This document shows, piece after piece, positions 31,679 through 46,709 of a stretch of DNA of 64,000 nt (its first letter is position 1; each line of letters begins with the position of its first letter). Source of the stretch: a virus. The DNA is taken from the IMG/VR virus record IMGVR_UViG_3300025872_000037, positions 1 to 64,000 of that record; one strand, 5' to 3'. Both the position numbers and the translations under genes were made by a program. A model generated the notes under the pieces. The model did not search any database and was not told where the DNA came from. It saw only the letters and a list, made by a program, of their open reading frames with translations.

Positions 31679-32035
31679 ATGCCAAATCATAATTCATCAT
31701 TCACGTTCAGTTATACTACCGAGGGTTACCAAGGTATCAACTATTCATCTCCTCCTCGCACAATTACATTTGATGTCGAGCGCGCAGAGGATCTTACACA
31801 CGCAGAATTATGCGAATGTTTCCAGGACTTTCTGAAGGCCTGCGGCTATATGTTAGACAACGGCACGATTGAGTTCGTTCCGTTCTCAGATGAGCCAGAT
31901 ATCCGTGAGGAAGATTACAACTACGAGCCGGCCCAACCTGAAGTTCAGGAAGATCCAAACCAGCAAAAGTTTGATTTCGCCAATAACGAAAACGTAGACA
32001 CCACTGGTTACGACCCAACACGCGGCGCCGTATGA
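31679..32035 (+). CDS. Hypothetical acidic protein
   Basis: 118 residues, not recognised. The N-terminus is Ser/Tyr/Thr-rich and strand-like (SSFTFSYTTEGYQGINYS), the middle has a helix with Cys residues (LTHAELCECFQDFLKACGYML), and the C-terminal third is acidic and Asn/Gln/Pro-rich. The last codons overlap the next start (ATGA at 32032). The base composition of this gene and the next is lower in G+C than gp43, suggesting they arrived together. Confidence 0.6.
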   Translation: MPNHNSSFTFSYTTEGYQGINYSSPPRTITFDVERAEDLTHAELCECFQDFLKACGYMLDNGTIEFVPFSDEPDIREEDYNYEPAQPEVQEDPNQQKFDFANNENVDTTGYDPTRGAV

Positions 32036-32430
32036 GCAACGACTGGGTACAAGATATCGCTGATATGCACCGCAAGTTCGGTGTCAATGATGCAGTACGC
32101 AAGATGGATGCTGATAAGCTAAAAGCATTTTTGGAGTTTCGCATTCGTTTCCTACAAGAAGAACTTGACGAGATGCGAAACGCCGACGATCCTGAAGAAG
32201 TAACGGACGCGCTGATTGATCTATGCGTTGTTGCCATCGGAACAATGGATGCTTTGGATATCAACGCTCATATTGCTTGGGATGAGGTGCATCGTGCAAA
32301 TATGTCTAAGCAAGTTGGCATCAAGGATTCACGTCCGAACCCGCTTGGCTTGCCAGACTTAATTAAGCCAAAAGGTTGGATTGCTCCATTTCATACTGGT
32401 AATATCGGTTTGCTTGAAAAGCTTAAGTGA
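32032..32430 (+). CDS. MazG-like all-alpha NTP pyrophosphohydrolase
   Basis: 132 residues. The metal-binding pattern of the all-alpha NTP-PPase superfamily is seen: EExxE in LQEELDEM (E43, E44, E47) and a following D/ExxxD helix in TDALIDLCVVAIGT (D59, D63). Enzymes of this superfamily hydrolyse (d)NTPs to NMPs; T4 gp56 dCTPase belongs to it. A substrate of dCTP would suit a 5-hydroxymethyl-dCTP-using phage but is only a guess; HisE- or MazG-type activity on other NTPs is possible. Starts in ATGA overlap and ends in GTGA overlap with the next gene. Confidence 0.7.
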   Translation: MSNDWVQDIADMHRKFGVNDAVRKMDADKLKAFLEFRIRFLQEELDEMRNADDPEEVTDALIDLCVVAIGTMDALDINAHIAWDEVHRANMSKQVGIKDSRPNPLGLPDLIKPKGWIAPFHTGNIGLLEKLK

Positions 32431-33865: not shown

Positions 33866-34459
33866 ATGCGAGTCAAGCTCACCCCTGAATCGGTCTCCTT
33901 TGCTATCGCAGAGGGGACCGAGATCTTTAAGAATTCTCGCAGCCTCAATTACCGAGACACGGAGCAGATAAAGATTAACAATTCCTTGCGAGGCGCATTC
34001 GGCCAACAAGCCTTCATTGAAGCGACGGGAGGCCGTCGCGTAACAGTTGAGGAGTGTCCAGCCTTTGCGTATGACGTGAAAGCCTCTAACGAGGCGATCC
34101 ACGCGTACTGTGGGTGGACTCTGCCGCTCGAGATGGACGCGGCGCGAGTTGAGGTAAAGACGAGCCGGATTGGCGGCCTCACGAAATGGATATCCTTCAA
34201 CGACCAAATGTTCAAGCACGTCACTAGGTGTGCAACCGCAGGGATGCTCGACTATGTGATCTTCTACGGAGTCCAGAACGAGGACCTGAAGAACTATGAG
34301 GCCGATGTTAGCCTTCTCGGAATTATTTCTGCCAAGGTTCTAACTCAGCAATTCACGGGCCCAGACAGGGAACGCCGACCATCGCTTCAAAACAAAGGAG
34401 ATTCGTTTCTTAATAAGAATAGCATCAACCGACAGAATCTCGGCCATATCTTTTTGTGA
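33866..34459 (+). CDS. Possible PD-(D/E)XK nuclease
   Basis: 197 residues from ATG 33866, 2 nt after the previous stop. A candidate nuclease core is seen: GAFGQQAFIEATGG helix, then AFAYDVKAS, then MDAARVEVKTS with D91 and E96-x-K98, then a helix with ISFNDQMFKHV and DYVIFYG strand. The (D)-(E)xK spacing fits PD-(D/E)XK enzymes (e.g. restriction-like nucleases). The last ~40 residues are polar. Not a recognised T4 gene. The call is fold-level only. Confidence 0.45.
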   Translation: MRVKLTPESVSFAIAEGTEIFKNSRSLNYRDTEQIKINNSLRGAFGQQAFIEATGGRRVTVEECPAFAYDVKASNEAIHAYCGWTLPLEMDAARVEVKTSRIGGLTKWISFNDQMFKHVTRCATAGMLDYVIFYGVQNEDLKNYEADVSLLGIISAKVLTQQFTGPDRERRPSLQNKGDSFLNKNSINRQNLGHIFL

Positions 34460-34487
34460 TTTACAACCGCAACCATCTGTTTAGGAT
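34460..34487 (+). promoter_or_regulatory. Early promoter before the modification/nucleotide island
   Basis: TTTACA (34460-34465), 16 nt, TAGGAT (34482-34487), 9 nt before the ATG at 34497. From here genes run to 39509 with overlaps or very short gaps and no other promoter of this form, so it probably drives the whole island. Confidence 0.82.
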
Positions 34488-34496
34488 CTGACACCT

Positions 34497-35000
34497 ATGA
34501 AGGAATCAATTAAAATCTTGCACGAGTGTGCTGAACTGCAGCTCAAGAAGTCCAATGACTACCAGAATCCAAATTCCACGATCCGCCAAGCGGACTACTA
34601 TCCTCGCGGATTCGCTTCTATCCTGGACATCATCCATACCAAGGTCCTCCGCATGCGCTCGGTCCTCGAGGCCATGGAGAATGACCCAAACTACAATCCC
34701 AACTTTGAGTCGCTTGAAGATTCAGCCAAAGACCTGATCAACTACGCCTCATTCGCCGCTGCGTTCATTCGTGGTGGTATCGATGGCCAGGATCCGAAGC
34801 GTGACTTCTTGAATCGCCCTCGGAAGACTACGACTGGCACCATTAAGATAACTAGCTACGGGCCGCCAAGCGGCCAGCCATTCAATCCTCCTCCGGCAGG
34901 TAGTGTCTACCTGGACTGTAATACACCAGCCCAAGGAAACCTGACCGTCACCGGCACAGAAAACTCTCAGACAAAGTATTTCACCAATGCTAACAGTTAA
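34497..35000 (+). CDS. Nmad1/DUF1599-like protein (nucleotide-modification-associated)
   Basis: 167 residues. The first ~100 residues match an all-alpha NTPase-like module: KKSNDYQNP near the start, SILDIIHTKVLRMRSVLE, and EDSAKDLINYASFAAAF. This pattern (ndY...iKvlRm...e.i.Dlinya) is what the Nmad1/DUF1599 family shows; members occur in phages with modified bases. The C-terminal ~65 residues are Pro/Gly/Thr-rich and probably disordered. It overlaps the gp42 start by 14 nt, so the two are coupled. Role inferred as a nucleotide-pool or modification helper. Confidence 0.6.
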   Translation: MKESIKILHECAELQLKKSNDYQNPNSTIRQADYYPRGFASILDIIHTKVLRMRSVLEAMENDPNYNPNFESLEDSAKDLINYASFAAAFIRGGIDGQDPKRDFLNRPRKTTTGTIKITSYGPPSGQPFNPPPAGSVYLDCNTPAQGNLTVTGTENSQTKYFTNANS

Positions 35001-35652
35001 AGACATCCGCCAACACTTCAAGGATGCTCTGACCCGTGAGGACTTCGTCATCGACAAGTCCGGTGTCAAGACCATCGAGATGGTCGGCGCCTCATTCCTG
35101 GCGAACGAGGATGCCATTTTCGGTGACGTCAATTGGGACTATGTCCGCCGTGAGATCCAGTGGTATGACAGCATGTCAAAGAAGGTCGCGGACATTCCTG
35201 GAGGTGCACCTAAAGTTTGGCAGGCTGTAGCCTCCAGCAAAGGAGAGATCAACTCCAACTATGGTTGGTGCATCTATTCCTCGGACAATCATAAGCAATA
35301 CTGGTCGGTGATGCTCGAGCTGCTGGCGAATCCAAACAGCCGCAGAGCCGTCATGATCTACACGCGTCCTACGATGCATTCTGATTATTGCCGAGATAAC
35401 ATGTCTGACTTCATGTGCACCAATGCGGTTCAGTACATGATTCGCAACAATGACCTTCATGCCGTGGTTCAGATGCGGTCCAATGATGTCGTCTTTGGTT
35501 ACAAGAACGACCGAGCCTGGCAACACGAAGTGATGGGTCGTCTTCTCGATGATCTGAACTCGAAGGGCGATAACCGCTATGGAATGGGAACTCTGACCTG
35601 GCAGGTCGGATCACTCCACGTCTACGAGCGCCACTTCAACCTCATTCAATGA
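34987..35652 (+). CDS. 42: gp42 dCMP hydroxymethylase
   Basis: 221 residues (T4 gp42: 246; the extra T4 residues are at the C-terminus). Thymidylate-synthase fold that makes 5-hydroxymethyl-dCMP with methylenetetrahydrofolate. Very close to T4 gp42 in the blocks DFVIDKSGVKTIE, VASSKGEINSNYGW, SRRAVMIYTRP, SDFMCTNAVQY (catalytic C144) and QMRSNDVVFGYKND. The last residue of that block, D175, takes the place of the Asn that selects dUMP in thymidylate synthase; Asp is the mark of dCMP specificity. ThyX elsewhere in the window supplies dTMP. Followed by dCMP deaminase with a 4-nt overlap. Confidence 0.93.
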   Translation: MLTVKDIRQHFKDALTREDFVIDKSGVKTIEMVGASFLANEDAIFGDVNWDYVRREIQWYDSMSKKVADIPGGAPKVWQAVASSKGEINSNYGWCIYSSDNHKQYWSVMLELLANPNSRRAVMIYTRPTMHSDYCRDNMSDFMCTNAVQYMIRNNDLHAVVQMRSNDVVFGYKNDRAWQHEVMGRLLDDLNSKGDNRYGMGTLTWQVGSLHVYERHFNLIQ

Positions 35653-36293
35653 ACTGTAACAAGTGGGACAACCGCTACCTGAGCCTGGCCAGAGAGGTCG
35701 GTTCGTGGTCCAAAGATCCTTCTCGCAAGATCGGAGCAGTGGCAATCGGAACCTGGGGCCAGGTTCTGTCACAGGGTTACAACGGTTTCCCACGCGGCAT
35801 TGAAGATACCGAGGACCGCCTGAACGATCGCCCGACAAAATACCGGTACGTCGTTCATGCGGAGATGAATGCCATCTACAACGCCAGTTTTAGCGGTGCG
35901 ATGTTGGCCGGTGCAACCATGTACGTGCACGGGCTTCCTATCTGTTCAGAGTGCGCGAAGGGAATCATACAGGTAGGAATCGGCCGCGTGGTCATACCGA
36001 GGCAGGAAGTACCAGATAACTGGAAAGAATCCTGTGAGTTCACCCGAACACTTTTTCATGAAGCAAAAATTCAGCTCGACGAAGTCGATTTCACCGAGAC
36101 TCATAGTTGTCGGAATGAACCCAGCGAAAACCCGTGGGAACCGGTCAAGATCTCCATCACTCCGGAGACTGGACGTATGGATGGATCGCCTGAAGATCCA
36201 GAGGTACTCGTTCATCAACAGCTCGCAGGCGCAAAAACCAAGGCTGTCAAATCTAGACCTGAATACTTTGGCCTTGACAAAAGGCTACGATAA
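35649..36293 (+). CDS. cd: dCMP deaminase with unusual C-terminal extension
   Basis: 214 residues; the enzymatic part covers about the first 150. Zinc and catalytic motifs: HAEMNAIYN (His-Ala-Glu) and PICSECAKGI (C-x2-C). It converts dCMP to dUMP and is normally regulated by dCTP/dTTP. From about residue 137 the frame overlaps the UDG-like gene in another frame for 236 nt; the extension (e.g. NEPSENPWEPVKISI) has no obvious relation to deaminases. Either a true overlap or a frameshift that lost the original stop. Starts in ATGA overlap with gp42. Confidence 0.88.
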   Translation: MNCNKWDNRYLSLAREVGSWSKDPSRKIGAVAIGTWGQVLSQGYNGFPRGIEDTEDRLNDRPTKYRYVVHAEMNAIYNASFSGAMLAGATMYVHGLPICSECAKGIIQVGIGRVVIPRQEVPDNWKESCEFTRTLFHEAKIQLDEVDFTETHSCRNEPSENPWEPVKISITPETGRMDGSPEDPEVLVHQQLAGAKTKAVKSRPEYFGLDKRLR

Positions 36294-36450
36294 GGTCATT
36301 GCCCTTGGCGGGTTTGCCTCGCGAGCGCTGGATCGGATATCGGTCCAGCATTTTACTTTACCTCACCCGAGTCCTCTGAATCGAAAACTCAACGATCCAA
36401 AGTTTGAGGCCGCGGCGCTTGAAAAATGCTATAACTACCTGTACGCATGA
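36058..36450 (+). CDS. Uracil-DNA glycosylase superfamily protein
   Basis: 130 residues from ATG 36058; an in-frame GTG at 36034 is the alternative. The two UDG-fold signatures are present: RLIVVGMNPAKTRG near the start and LPHPSPLNRKLND near the end, with VIALGGFASRALD between. Such minimal UDG-like proteins are common in marine T4-like phages. The canonical catalytic Asp/Asn after the first motif is not obvious, so substrate may differ from uracil. In this island it might act on a modified or intermediate base; that is inference. The final 4 nt overlap the next gene. Confidence 0.72.
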   Translation: MKQKFSSTKSISPRLIVVGMNPAKTRGNRSRSPSLRRLDVWMDRLKIQRYSFINSSQAQKPRLSNLDLNTLALTKGYDKVIALGGFASRALDRISVQHFTLPHPSPLNRKLNDPKFEAAALEKCYNYLYA

Positions 36451-37613
36451 AAATTGAAATGACCCCTTACTACGACGAGTTCCTTCGCTACTTTAATCTG
36501 GCAAAGGATCAGCAGGCCAAGTGTAACCTTGGCATTATTCCTTACAAGGAATCTGAAATGGGAGATGCTCTTCTCGAGAACGTCGAACTGTACGATGTGG
36601 TGGAACGTAAGTACGCCGGTTTCTCTCAGATCGTCAATGACGTATTCTATGGATGGGCAGAGGAACATCCATACTGGCACAAGATGAAAGATGGCCACCA
36701 TAGCAAGCAGCGGAAAATCGTGGCCACGAACTGGACCGGTAAACAGAAGGTCTTCGGTCTAGAGGAATGGCTGTACGTCTTCCTGTTGCACCGAGTCTGC
36801 GGATCAGGAATCAATTACTCTCACAAACCATCAGGTTACCACAATACCCTACTCTTCGAACTTCACAAGTGCAATACGATCGAAGAAATGGTGGAGATGG
36901 TAAAGACGTATCCAAAGTCATTCTACACCTCGGTGGGATATCAGTTCCCGGCATTTCCAAAACCACATGCCGGGTCGGGGTACAAGCGAGGCGGTGATTA
37001 TTACTTGGCCGAATTTGCTCCGAGGTTGGTCAGGGACTTCGCAAAATTTTTGCAGGAAGCTCCTTCCCAGAAGGATCTGAGAGTATTGGGAGAATGGCTA
37101 TTTGCCTGGAACAAGAAGAATGGTCTGCGGGCCTACCGCTTCCAGTATGCCGCCTTCATTGCCGATGTCGCGGACTGGTTCCCTCAGTTCGTCAATCGGA
37201 CCAGCCATTTCTACTACGGTTCGAATGCCGTCGAGTGCATCTCGTACCTGGCAAAGCCGATGGGGCGACTGAAGGAGGAACAATTCTTGGATGCCGTGAT
37301 GGACAGAATCTATCTGGACACTGGATCGGTTCCCTACAATGCCGAAGACGTGTGCTGTGACTTCATCCGCTGGGTTGAGAATTATGTTCGTCCTGGAGCA
37401 GACTATGGCCACCTGGATCGAGACAAATTGTGGTCTTCTCACCGAATCACCGATCACCCGTACGGGCGCCAGAAGCCAATGCTTGAACTTGGTCTCATCA
37501 AATCTTTCAACGATTTGGATGTACACCCGTCCGACGACTATATACTGTCTAGGGCTGCAATGACTGTTACGGAATACAAGAACAAAGTGAAGGAACTTTA
37601 TGGCGCACGATAA
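36447..37613 (+). CDS. Uncharacterised island protein, possibly related to base-hypermodifying transferases
   Basis: 388 residues, mostly helical. A conserved-looking core contains FLLHRVCGSGINY (R116, G119-S-G121), SGYHNTLLFEL (about 129-139), a YRFQYAAFIADVADWFP helix and YYGSNAVECISYL. The pattern R-x2-GSG ... HxNT ... a DL-type helix ... G-x-x-A recalls the helical family first described as alpha-glutamyl/putrescinyl-thymine pyrophosphorylases (HMUDK_hel and related amino acid:DNA transferases). I cannot confirm that by alignment. Context is the stronger argument: it lies between gp42/deaminase/UDG and a PLP enzyme, like hypermodification loci. It overlaps the PLP gene by 14 nt. Confidence 0.5.
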   Translation: MKIEMTPYYDEFLRYFNLAKDQQAKCNLGIIPYKESEMGDALLENVELYDVVERKYAGFSQIVNDVFYGWAEEHPYWHKMKDGHHSKQRKIVATNWTGKQKVFGLEEWLYVFLLHRVCGSGINYSHKPSGYHNTLLFELHKCNTIEEMVEMVKTYPKSFYTSVGYQFPAFPKPHAGSGYKRGGDYYLAEFAPRLVRDFAKFLQEAPSQKDLRVLGEWLFAWNKKNGLRAYRFQYAAFIADVADWFPQFVNRTSHFYYGSNAVECISYLAKPMGRLKEEQFLDAVMDRIYLDTGSVPYNAEDVCCDFIRWVENYVRPGADYGHLDRDKLWSSHRITDHPYGRQKPMLELGLIKSFNDLDVHPSDDYILSRAAMTVTEYKNKVKELYGAR

Positions 37614-38487
37614 TCATGTCGTTGACGGAATCAACAAAGACCTGAAAGGATTGTCCTGGGCCGATGCCAAGGACTATTACCTAGGTCTTTGCGAAGGCTG
37701 GAAACCGTACAATCCGCCACCAGTTGTGGTGGAGCACGATGGTGTACAGGTGGTACGCGACGATCTGATCGTTGGTACGAAGACTCGCGCCGGAGATCTA
37801 CTGGCAGCCAAGGCGCCGCTCAAGACGATCGTGTACTGCCAGCCGCGTGTGGGTCTGGCCGGCGTTTCGATCGCCGATGTGGCCAAGAGGCACAACAAGA
37901 ACGTTGTTCTGTTCATGCCTTCCTCGAAGGAGATCTCTCGCCATCAGGCTTGTTGCATCGAGCGCGGTGCCACGGCATACTTCGAACGCATTGCTGCCAT
38001 GCCGAACCTGAATCGGAAGGCCGAGATGTGGGCCAAAGAGAACGGCGCATTCTTCGTTCCTCTCGGCCTCAAACACGAGTTAGCCACCGCTGGTATCGTT
38101 CACGCAGCCTCGATGATTCCGGAACCAGATGAAGTCTATGTGGCCATCTCGACCGGAGTGCTCTCTCGTGCCCTGCAGATCGCCTGGCCGAACGCAAAGT
38201 TCCACTGTGTGGCTGTGGCTCGTAATCTCAAGGAAGGTGAACTTGGCCGTGCCGAAGTCATCACCGAACCTCTGGACTTTACTGTAGCCGAGAAGAAGGA
38301 GAACCTGCCGCCGTTCCCGACGGTCAATACGTACGATGCGAAAGTCTGGAAGTACGTCCCGAAGAATGTCCGCGGAAAGAAGATCCTCATGTGGAACGTC
38401 GGTACCGAACCGGTTCTGAAAGACGAGACCATAATTCAGAAGACGAAGTCCTATCGTGACTGGGCAAAGAAGGAATCTAAAGGATGA
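37600..38487 (+). CDS. PLP-dependent enzyme, fold type II (tryptophan synthase beta / D-cysteine desulfhydrase-like)
   Basis: 295 residues. The N-terminal catalytic block VVRDDLIVGTKTRAGDLLAA corresponds to the KxDDL..G.K.R motif of this fold, with K61 as the likely Schiff-base lysine. Further: AGVSIADVAKRHNKNVVLFMP, a GATAYFERI segment, and STGVLSRALQIAWP as the phosphate-binding glycine-region equivalent. Enzymes of this class act on amino acids (elimination, beta-replacement, decarboxylation-like). In thymine-hypermodifying phages a PLP enzyme acts on amino acids attached to DNA bases. A similar job here, on hydroxymethylcytosine, is inferred from neighbours. Overlaps both flanking genes. 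Confidence 0.75.
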   Translation: MAHDNHVVDGINKDLKGLSWADAKDYYLGLCEGWKPYNPPPVVVEHDGVQVVRDDLIVGTKTRAGDLLAAKAPLKTIVYCQPRVGLAGVSIADVAKRHNKNVVLFMPSSKEISRHQACCIERGATAYFERIAAMPNLNRKAEMWAKENGAFFVPLGLKHELATAGIVHAASMIPEPDEVYVAISTGVLSRALQIAWPNAKFHCVAVARNLKEGELGRAEVITEPLDFTVAEKKENLPPFPTVNTYDAKVWKYVPKNVRGKKILMWNVGTEPVLKDETIIQKTKSYRDWAKKESKG

Positions 38488-39509
38488 AATCAGTACTCGT
38501 AACTACTCCGATGGCTCCGATCTCGGAGCGCATCAGCTCTCATCGCGCCGCTCAGGCCGTGATCTATGCTGACCAGATTGCATCCAAGGGATATGACGTC
38601 ACGATCAACTTTGGCGGCAAGATCGACAACTACAATGACTGGGATATCCTGGCCGTTTACCACGGTAACGACTGGGGTGGTACGGTCAATATGTTCGGCG
38701 GCGTAAAGGCCTACGCGGCGATCGATCAGATCGTTAACCTATCGAAGTTCAAGGGAGAAGTATGGTCACTGGCAATCGATTTCCCAGACTATGCCGGGAT
38801 GATCAAGCCACGAGTGGACAAAGAACCAGACGCCCATCCAGCCTGGAAGAACGTCGACTGGGAAAATCTATCGAAGATGGTGACTTCGAGCTTGAAGATC
38901 CATACGAACGATTTTGTTGAATCGGGAAAACTTGCCTTCGGAGATTCACATGCGATCTCGATGTACCGTACAGGGTGGGAAGTCAACTCCGTACCGTTCA
39001 AGACTTTATATGGAGCTCTGGATATGGGACTCAAGGAATTTGTTATTGACGACGAGTACCAAGAGCTTGAGGTCTACTTCGGCAACATTGACATTCGTCA
39101 CCACCTGCTTCGTCAGCCAGATCCGAAGAAAGCGACTCAAGAACTCGTGTGCCGGTACGTCAAGCAGGCAAAGGAACTCAGAGAATCTGTCAAGGCCGAT
39201 GTGATTCGTATCTGGGAACCGCTGCCCATCGAGAACGAATCTCGCAAGTTGCCTAAGACCGGTTACTACAAGGGAACTCCGTTCTACGGATCCTGGACAG
39301 AGCGTAACGAGATCCGCAAGGTTTTTGTGGAAGAACTTCTGTCGAATTCTATCGACGGCGTGGATATTTTCCGATGGACCGACAAGCTCCTCAACGAAAA
39401 GGGAGAGCTTGATTTCGAGGCCATGGAGAAACCACAGTCCGTTCATCTTTCTCGTGCCTCCTATCCGCACTGGAGTGGAAAAGAGTGGAACGATTCTCAG
39501 ACAAAATAA
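38484..39509 (+). CDS. SGNH/GDSL-like protein with N-terminal alpha/beta domain
   Basis: 341 residues. Residues 1-140 (VLVTTPMAPISERISSHRAAQAV, NFGGKIDNYNDWDILAVYHGNDWGG) look like a Rossmann-type domain, perhaps glycosyltransferase-like. From residue 150 there is an SGNH pattern: AFGDSHA (S155), YFGNIDIRHH, and a terminal HLSRASYPHW that could supply the catalytic His. SGNH enzymes are esterases, deacylases or acyltransferases. It is the last gene of the island and is coupled to the PLP gene by an ATGA overlap. Specific role unknown; acyl or sugar transfer in base modification is a hypothesis. Confidence 0.55.
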   Translation: MKSVLVTTPMAPISERISSHRAAQAVIYADQIASKGYDVTINFGGKIDNYNDWDILAVYHGNDWGGTVNMFGGVKAYAAIDQIVNLSKFKGEVWSLAIDFPDYAGMIKPRVDKEPDAHPAWKNVDWENLSKMVTSSLKIHTNDFVESGKLAFGDSHAISMYRTGWEVNSVPFKTLYGALDMGLKEFVIDDEYQELEVYFGNIDIRHHLLRQPDPKKATQELVCRYVKQAKELRESVKADVIRIWEPLPIENESRKLPKTGYYKGTPFYGSWTERNEIRKVFVEELLSNSIDGVDIFRWTDKLLNEKGELDFEAMEKPQSVHLSRASYPHWSGKEWNDSQTK

Positions 39510-39511
39510 GA

Positions 39512-39540
39512 TTTACAACCGTCACGAAATGTGACATGAT
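39512..39540 (+). promoter_or_regulatory. Early promoter before uvsX
   Basis: TTTACA (39512-39517), 17 nt, CATGAT (39535-39540), 6 nt before the ATG at 39547. The -10 is weaker than at the other early promoters. Confidence 0.6.
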
Positions 39541-45582: not shown

Positions 45583-46017
45583 ATGACAAACGACCAAGAT
45601 ACTGATGTCCCGTTCAACACAGACGAGGATCCGTTTCCCAGTGCCATCTGGGACAAAGCTGCCGATGATGCTGCAAAGCGTTATGCTGAGGCTGTACGAG
45701 ACGAGATCTACGAACTAGACGGGTCACAAATCGGAAAGGTCAACTTCAGCCACGAGATGGTCGCAAGTTCTGATCAAAAGAAGAAGGCCAGGTCAATAGT
45801 GATTCGGTCCGACTTCGGGGCGGTTCTCGTTTTACCGGACTTCAAGAAGAAGTCCGCCTCCGCCACGATCCTGAACCTTGGAGTCATTCGTGCCATGAAG
45901 CAGGAAGGGTACACATCAGAATATATCCAGGAGAACGGCAAGATCTATGGCGACGTCAGGCCTTTCGATAAAAAGAACGTTGAGCTATTCGCCTATTACC
46001 TGACCCATAAAATATGA
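45583..46017 (+). CDS. Hypothetical protein before thyX
   Basis: 144 residues, acidic N-terminus (TNDQDTDVPFNTDEDPFP), then a helix (WDKAADDAAKRYAEAVRDEIYEL) and a mixed C-terminal half with strand-like SIVIRSDFGAVLVLPDF. Not recognised. The stop overlaps the thyX start by 4 nt (ATGA). Confidence 0.6.
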   Translation: MTNDQDTDVPFNTDEDPFPSAIWDKAADDAAKRYAEAVRDEIYELDGSQIGKVNFSHEMVASSDQKKKARSIVIRSDFGAVLVLPDFKKKSASATILNLGVIRAMKQEGYTSEYIQENGKIYGDVRPFDKKNVELFAYYLTHKI

Positions 46018-46709
46018 TCTTTGACCATCAAACCGTACGGCTCATCAGCCACACGAAATCGGTCTCCAATGGTCCTGCTGCGATGGATATGCAGGAACTC
46101 GTGGCCTTCTGCGCTCGGGTCAGCAATCCAGCAAACCAGAACAACCTGGAGACATCCGAGAAGCTTGTTCGTTACCTGATCAAACACCGCCACTGGTCTC
46201 CTCTGGAGATGGTCTCGGCCACGGTCGAGATCAACACCACTCGTGACATCGCCCGGCAGATCCTGAGGCATCGTTCGTTTTCGTTTCAGGAGTTCTCTCA
46301 GCGCTATGCCGATCCGACCGCCGCTCTGGAGATGGTGGTCCGTGAGGCCAGGTTGCAGGACAAGAAGAACCGCCAGAATTCGGTTTCAACAGATGACCAG
46401 AACCTCATGATCTGGTGGAAGGAACGGCAGAAAGATCTCATCGAGCTGTCGGAGAGCATCTACAAGGATGCCACTGCCCGTGGAATCGCCAAGGAACAGG
46501 CTCGAGCGATCCTCCCTGAGGGTTGCACGATGTCTCGGATCTACATGGCCGGAACGCTGCGCAGCTTCGTTCACTTCATTGACGTCCGATCTGCCAATGG
46601 GACTCAGGCCGAATGTGCAGACGTGGCCCGAAAGACCGCAGAGGTTCTCAGGCCGGTTTTCCCAATGGTCCTGGAGTTTGTTCAATCTCAAGCCGTTGAT
46701 GGCCAATGA
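46014..46709 (+). CDS. thyX: ThyX flavin-dependent thymidylate synthase
   Basis: 231 residues. The ThyX signature RHRSFSFQEFSQRY (85-98) fits RHRxxSxxExSxRY; the FAD- and dUMP-binding helices (e.g. KEQARAILPEG and GTLRSFVHFIDVR) follow in the usual order. It methylates dUMP to dTMP using FADH2, and so supplies thymidine while the ThyA-fold enzyme in this genome (gp42) works on dCMP. Last gene of the operon that begins at 42334. ThyX is common in marine and alphaproteobacterial phages. Confidence 0.95.
   Translation: MIFDHQTVRLISHTKSVSNGPAAMDMQELVAFCARVSNPANQNNLETSEKLVRYLIKHRHWSPLEMVSATVEINTTRDIARQILRHRSFSFQEFSQRYADPTAALEMVVREARLQDKKNRQNSVSTDDQNLMIWWKERQKDLIELSESIYKDATARGIAKEQARAILPEGCTMSRIYMAGTLRSFVHFIDVRSANGTQAECADVARKTAEVLRPVFPMVLEFVQSQAVDGQ

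Follow-up and report, generated by a model that had tools for sequence, protein, structure and literature searches.

The window that we investigated is a 64,000-nucleotide stretch of viral DNA, the first 64 kb of the 128,087-base IMG/VR record IMGVR_UViG_3300025872_000037. Between positions 34,497 and 39,509 it contains a set of seven genes that we interpret as an operon for hypermodifying 5-hydroxymethylcytosine (hmC), a reading to which we give a probability of about 0.72. A dCMP hydroxymethylase of the T4 gp42 type is expected to provide the hydroxymethylated base, and the last three genes encode a helical protein that is probably similar to amino acid:DNA transferases (ADDTs), a pyridoxal phosphate (PLP) fold-II enzyme, and a protein that combines a domain resembling T4 beta-glucosyltransferase (beta-GT) with an SGNH domain. 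The phage itself is a T4-like myovirus, with PHROG matches to UvsX, a DnaB-type helicase, DNA polymerase, tail sheath and head scaffold. A first-pass annotation of this DNA had already proposed a cytosine-hypermodification island built on gp42; below we examine the evidence gene by gene.

The gene set is conserved in environmental phages. A search of viral contigs with the helical protein as query returned 285 relatives, of which the best 80 were inspected; gene order was counted for the loci with sufficient flanking sequence, 62 downstream and 53 upstream of the helical gene. In 62/62 loci the helical gene is followed by those for the PLP and SGNH proteins, and gp42 (45/53), Nmad1 (44/53), the uracil-DNA glycosylase (UDG)-like gene (41/53) and the deaminase gene (25/53) are found upstream; the 80 loci are mutually related, and these counts do not represent independent events. 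All eight records checked, six reached via the helical gene and two via an additional companion gene, encode gp42, and in three larger records without gp42 near the cassette it is located about 13 kb away. The cassette thus recurs in other phages that carry gp42, and because its gene order is kept across dozens of environmental contigs it is not a chance grouping. A search of the collection of deposited phages found no relative of the helical protein, and the cassette in the form found in the window is therefore known here from environmental sequence only.

The seven open reading frames (ORFs) were recovered at the positions given in the first-pass annotation. All are on the plus strand and overlap or nearly touch: an Nmad1 (DUF1599) nucleotide-modification-associated protein (34497..35000), the gp42-type dCMP hydroxymethylase (34987..35652), a dCMP deaminase (35649..36293; PF00383, E 2.4e-17), a UDG-superfamily protein (36058..36450, with an alternative GTG start at 36034; PF03167, E 8.8e-6, above the cut-off), the helical protein (36447..37613), the PLP enzyme (37600..38487) and the beta-GT-like/SGNH protein (38484..39509). 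The match of PF07659 to the Nmad1 protein of the window is weak and under the cut-off (E 0.0017); 8/10 members of its family match, the best with 7e-7. The operon is headed by the promoter-like element that had been noted before, running from ATTTACAACC to TAGGAT (34459..34487, plus strand). A second copy of ATTTACAACC (39511..39520, plus strand) is located just upstream of uvsX and marks the operon end. These are the only two copies in the window, where 0.14 would be expected; the remaining 64 kb of the record contain no further copy, and both copies are retained in a close relative (L006). Since the motif occurs before the first gene and again after the last one and nowhere else, positions 34459-39509 likely form one transcription unit. 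The frame of the deaminase extends about 236 bases inside the UDG-like gene (36058-36293). In more distant relatives the deaminase stops earlier, and the long 3' extension therefore looks lineage-specific.

The sequence supports the identification of gp42 (PF00303, phrog_160). Its sequence is 59% identical to T4 gp42 and 59-62% identical to T-even dCMP hydroxymethylases in general, and both the catalytic Cys (C144) and the Asp of the KND motif that confers specificity for dCMP (T4 D179) are conserved; the hydroxymethylase of Pseudomonas phage M6, which hypermodifies thymidine, differs at this Asp. It is the sole PF00303 protein of the whole record, and a separate ThyX (46014..46709, plus strand; PF02511, E 2.1e-41) would supply dTMP. 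Because of the T4-type gp42 and the separate ThyX, hmC is the starting base expected from the sequence. The specificity Asp and the presence of ThyX also disfavor gp42 as a thymidylate synthase or as a dUMP enzyme. A PRA-PH/MazG-like pyrophosphohydrolase encoded upstream of the operon (32032..32430, plus strand; PF01503, E 4.1e-8) may be a candidate for the removal of dCTP. Genes for thymidylate-synthase-fold, dCMP deaminase and PRA-PH proteins co-occur with modified cytosine in MetaGPA (PMC8670742), and the protein encoded at 32032 resembles the latter.

The PLP enzyme is connected to a known hypermodification system. The profile of its family aligns end-to-end with M6 gp52 in hhalign (E 5.7e-8), including a shared C-terminal motif, and scores 58.7, whereas neither unrelated ORFs nor shuffles exceed 22.8. 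The PLP lysine of the enzyme, K61, does not vary within the family, and the enzyme itself matches phrog_7093 (E 1e-37). Judged by these profiles the enzyme is homologous to M6 gp52, in agreement with the fold-II identity and the kinship to thymine-modifying phages that the first-pass annotation had proposed. In M6-like phages the PLP gene sits in a thymidine-hypermodification cassette (PMC9476957); the M6 cluster encodes an ADDT, a PLP enzyme, a radical SAM enzyme, a kinase and a helical domain. A small PLP fold-II-like protein is also found in Microcystis phage Mae-JY30 (L004:6384-8702), where it is annotated as a DNA modification methylase and adjoins ParB/sulfiredoxin genes near the terminase.

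For the 388 amino acids of the helical protein neither Pfam nor PHROG provided a match, and its AlphaFold model is almost entirely helix (pLDDT 69). Among its structural neighbors in BFVD are proteins named ADDT, including one with 63% identity and another that has 11% identity and a probability of 1.00. In the comparison of its profile to those of known ADDTs only a C-terminal motif aligns, with a borderline score (27.5 against a null maximum of 27.4) that 0/60 column shuffles attain; comparison to the profiles of M6 gp51 or gp55 alone gave no match. Model and profile suggest that the protein is probably ADDT-like. In 43/62 relatives a conserved protein of about 340 amino acids (e.g., L016:7106-8143) is encoded between the helical and PLP genes; no match to it was found in this record. 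Comparisons gave no support for this companion being a second ADDT or a paralogue, although the comparison had limited power, as it also did not connect ADDTs to proteins of the PF18723 type, and we leave the protein unnamed. In 11/62 relatives the cassette is followed by a homologue of C5-cytosine methyltransferases (PF00145; L016:10087-11286, L049:6737-7933).

The protein encoded at 38484 had been described as SGNH-like, which is correct for its C-terminal domain only. In a PDB fold search, the C-terminal part of its confident AlphaFold model (pLDDT 89) retrieved hydrolases and acyltransferases of the SGNH superfamily (E about 1e-5, probability 1.00), among them sugar O-acetylesterases and the O-acetyltransferase PatB. 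The motifs GDSH, GNID and the C-terminal His (S155, N201, H321) are retained in the homologues from phages 44RR, Aes012 and PTm1, down to 26% identity; the usual block-V Asp is absent (Q318). The N-terminal part resembles T4 beta-GT: 17/28 family members match PF09198 (best E 5e-4), with the copy in the window under the curated cut-off, and hhalign gave P 1.5e-4 and a score of 38.2 against at most 29.5 for controls. The residue aligned to the catalytic Asp100 of beta-GT (D99) is not conserved, and the UDP-glucose-binding C-domain of beta-GT is not present, the C-terminal half being SGNH. Consequently, the protein is neither a plain glucosyltransferase nor an SGNH protein alone, and the statement that no T4-type glucosyltransferase is recognizable in the window needs qualification: a beta-GT-like domain is there, without the sugar-binding half and the catalytic Asp. 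The gene also occupies the position of beta-gt in T4, where the order is 42, beta-gt, segA, uvsX, compared to 42 ... 38484, uvsX here.

Proteins of this type are found in 43 records, chiefly T4-like phages of Aeromonas. In 44RR, avDM9 and Aes012 they are 26-33% identical to nearly the whole window protein, and gp42 is present; a search of these three genomes for the PLP gene or a helical gene of the window type found none. In two of them, 44RR and avDM9, the SGNH protein carries a fused C-terminal part with weak matches to PF18723 (E 0.0036 and 0.0022), the helical-domain family of M6 gp55. By its sequence this part is probably a helical domain of thymidine hypermodification. Phages 44RR, 31 and 25 have gene 42 without glucosyltransferases, and the protection of their hmC was left unanswered (PMC2993671). 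A logic related to the SGNH-based activation considered below, if it holds there, would explain hmC modification in Aeromonas phages of the 44RR type. The cassette makes the fate of hmC in phages with gene 42 but without glucosyltransferases, a long-standing question, testable; because 44RR is cultured, a direct check of the SGNH branch is possible.

In thymine hypermodification the 5-hmdU DNA kinase (HMUDK) activates 5-hydroxymethyluracil (hmU) at the start of the pathway, ADDTs put an amino acid onto the DNA base, and the PLP enzyme M6 gp52 remodels the adduct, probably by decarboxylation. The first-pass annotation had transferred this logic to hmC as it stands. As stated this is not supported, since HMUDK (PF18748) was detected neither in the record nor in the six large relatives searched, whereas M6, the positive control, gave a match. 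No ParB was found in the record, and a ParB-type kinase was rejected as activator for this reason. The lack of a recognized activating enzyme is the main gap in the proposed pathway and counts against a hypermodification of hmC, and further observations point in the same direction. A search for a T4-type hm-dCMP kinase (DNMK) found none. Pfam ADDT (PF18724) has no match over the cut-off in 24 members of the helical family, in the record or in six relatives, with M6 positive; searching the PDB for folds similar to that model of the helical protein gave nothing usable, and the ADDT assignment is based on a low-confidence model, an automatic name on a protein with 63% identity and a borderline profile match. 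Finally, the PLP family is, by sequence, wider than thymine modification, because its relative in the Microcystis phage adjoins ParB genes and has 155 relatives among viral contigs.

Because HMUDK was not found, we asked whether the SGNH domain might act as the activator. Capping by the SGNH domain is equally possible, as in PaMx11 an annotated acetyltransferase lies two genes downstream of the ADDT. In the pathway that we envisage, gp42 would, by homology, produce 5-hydroxymethyl-dCMP, the deaminase and Nmad1 would be its partners in the nucleotide pool, ThyX would provide dTMP, and hm-dCTP would replace dCTP during incorporation. After replication, the SGNH protein and the ADDT-like protein would convert the hydroxymethyl group to an adduct with an amino acid or an amine. 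Here hmC in the DNA would be bound by the beta-GT-like domain, and the SGNH domain may either substitute for the kinase by forming an activating O-acyl ester or cap the final amine. By analogy to M6, the PLP enzyme would remodel the adduct, probably by decarboxylation, and the product may play the role that glucose has in T4 and shield the DNA of the phage against nucleases of the host. The formation and incorporation of the hydroxymethylated nucleotide, followed by a hypermodification other than with glucose, are likely. The exact chemistry of adduct formation and remodeling is a tentative working guess drawn by analogy. One fully specified version, in which the SGNH domain on a DNA-binding domain derived from beta-GT O-acylates hmC and replaces the kinase, the ADDT-like protein adds an amino acid to the cytosine and the PLP enzyme remodels it, is unlikely to be correct.

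An alternative explanation is that hmC is glycosylated, either by the beta-GT-like protein or by the product of a GT2-type glycosyltransferase gene in the second half of the record (positions 84467-85216), with the SGNH domain acylating or trimming the sugar and the helical and PLP proteins acting on the sugar or its precursor. The beta-GT-like domain and the T4-like gene position are consistent with this explanation, as are the GT2 gene itself and the fold matches of the SGNH domain to sugar O-acetylesterases and PatB. A sodium-solute transporter, annotated for galactose, adjoins the homologue in 44RR, and in Aes012, which has gp42, genes for UDP-galactopyranose mutase, an unnamed protein and the SGNH protein are grouped (L251:1773-5047). 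This grouping suggests, from gene content, another hmC modification, and because the mutase gene neighbors the SGNH gene the sugar route is a possible one for the Aes012 branch; like the GT2 gene, it counts against the hypermodification pathway that we envisage. However, the nucleotide-sugar half of beta-GT is swapped for SGNH in the cassette protein, the residue at the catalytic Asp varies, none of the cassette genes encodes a nucleotide-sugar enzyme, and the PLP enzyme shares its family with M6 gp52. We therefore regard glycosylation as rather improbable.

If instead the cassette only made and guarded hmC, with gp42, deaminase and Nmad1 leading to hm-dCTP, then the helical, PLP and SGNH proteins would serve counter-defense or amino-acid metabolism and leave the base untouched. 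The failure of our searches to recover a base-activating enzyme would be accounted for, and so would the occurrence of the PLP family outside known hypermodifying phages and phage PTm1, which has the SGNH protein and whose sole gp42-like match is weak. This explanation is very unlikely in light of the strict linkage of the PLP and SGNH genes to the helical gene and of the set to gp42, the homology of the PLP enzyme to M6 gp52, the PF18723-like part to which the SGNH protein of 44RR is fused, and the beta-GT-like domain of the SGNH protein.

In phage DNA, hmC is so far known to be glycosylated or carbamoylated, and amino-acid chemistry on a hydroxymethylated base is known from thymine; the cassette, which recurs among hundreds of environmental contigs, is an indication of amino-acid chemistry on hmC. 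Should an SGNH or amino acid:DNA enzyme prove to be a new DNA-modifying activity, it would be a useful tool for labeling hmC. The hypermodification of cytosine along these lines had been considered new. This was too broad, because hmC with a non-sugar group is already known as 5-carbamoyloxymethylcytosine (PMC8670742), and a cytosine carrying an amino acid as 5-carboxymethylcytosine-glycine (PMC12783734). The claim is therefore narrowed to the combination of enzymes: a set of ADDT-like, PLP and SGNH proteins acting on hmC appears to be undescribed in the open-licence literature.

The CmoA/CmoX/CmoY system behind 5-carboxymethylcytosine-glycine (PMC12783734) also joins an amino acid to the cytosine of phage DNA, but it uses C5-carboxymethylation by a methyltransferase homologue instead of hmC made by gp42, and an ATP-dependent amide ligase. 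The carbamoyltransferase system described with MetaGPA (PMC8670742) is similar in that hmC is hypermodified with a non-sugar group, and differs from the ADDT-like, PLP and SGNH genes found here; the carbamoyltransferase domains PF02543 and PF16861 have no match among the seven cassette proteins, a comparison that did not extend to a genome-wide search. With T4, which has gp42 and alpha- and beta-glucosyltransferases, the phage shares gp42 and the order 42 - (beta-GT-like) - uvsX, whereas an SGNH domain replaces the sugar-binding half of beta-GT and the helical and PLP genes are additional. The M6 and SN1 thymidine-hypermodification clusters start from hmU, with the HMUDK kinase and a radical SAM enzyme. 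A dUMP hydroxymethylase of the kind that gives hmU was not found here, the only thymidylate-synthase-fold protein being of the dCMP type, and the M6 cluster is without an annotated SGNH protein, unlike the cassette. The M6 and SN1 clusters and the cassette have in common a pyrimidine hydroxymethylase, a helical protein, which is here only probably of the ADDT type, and homologous PLP fold-II enzymes.

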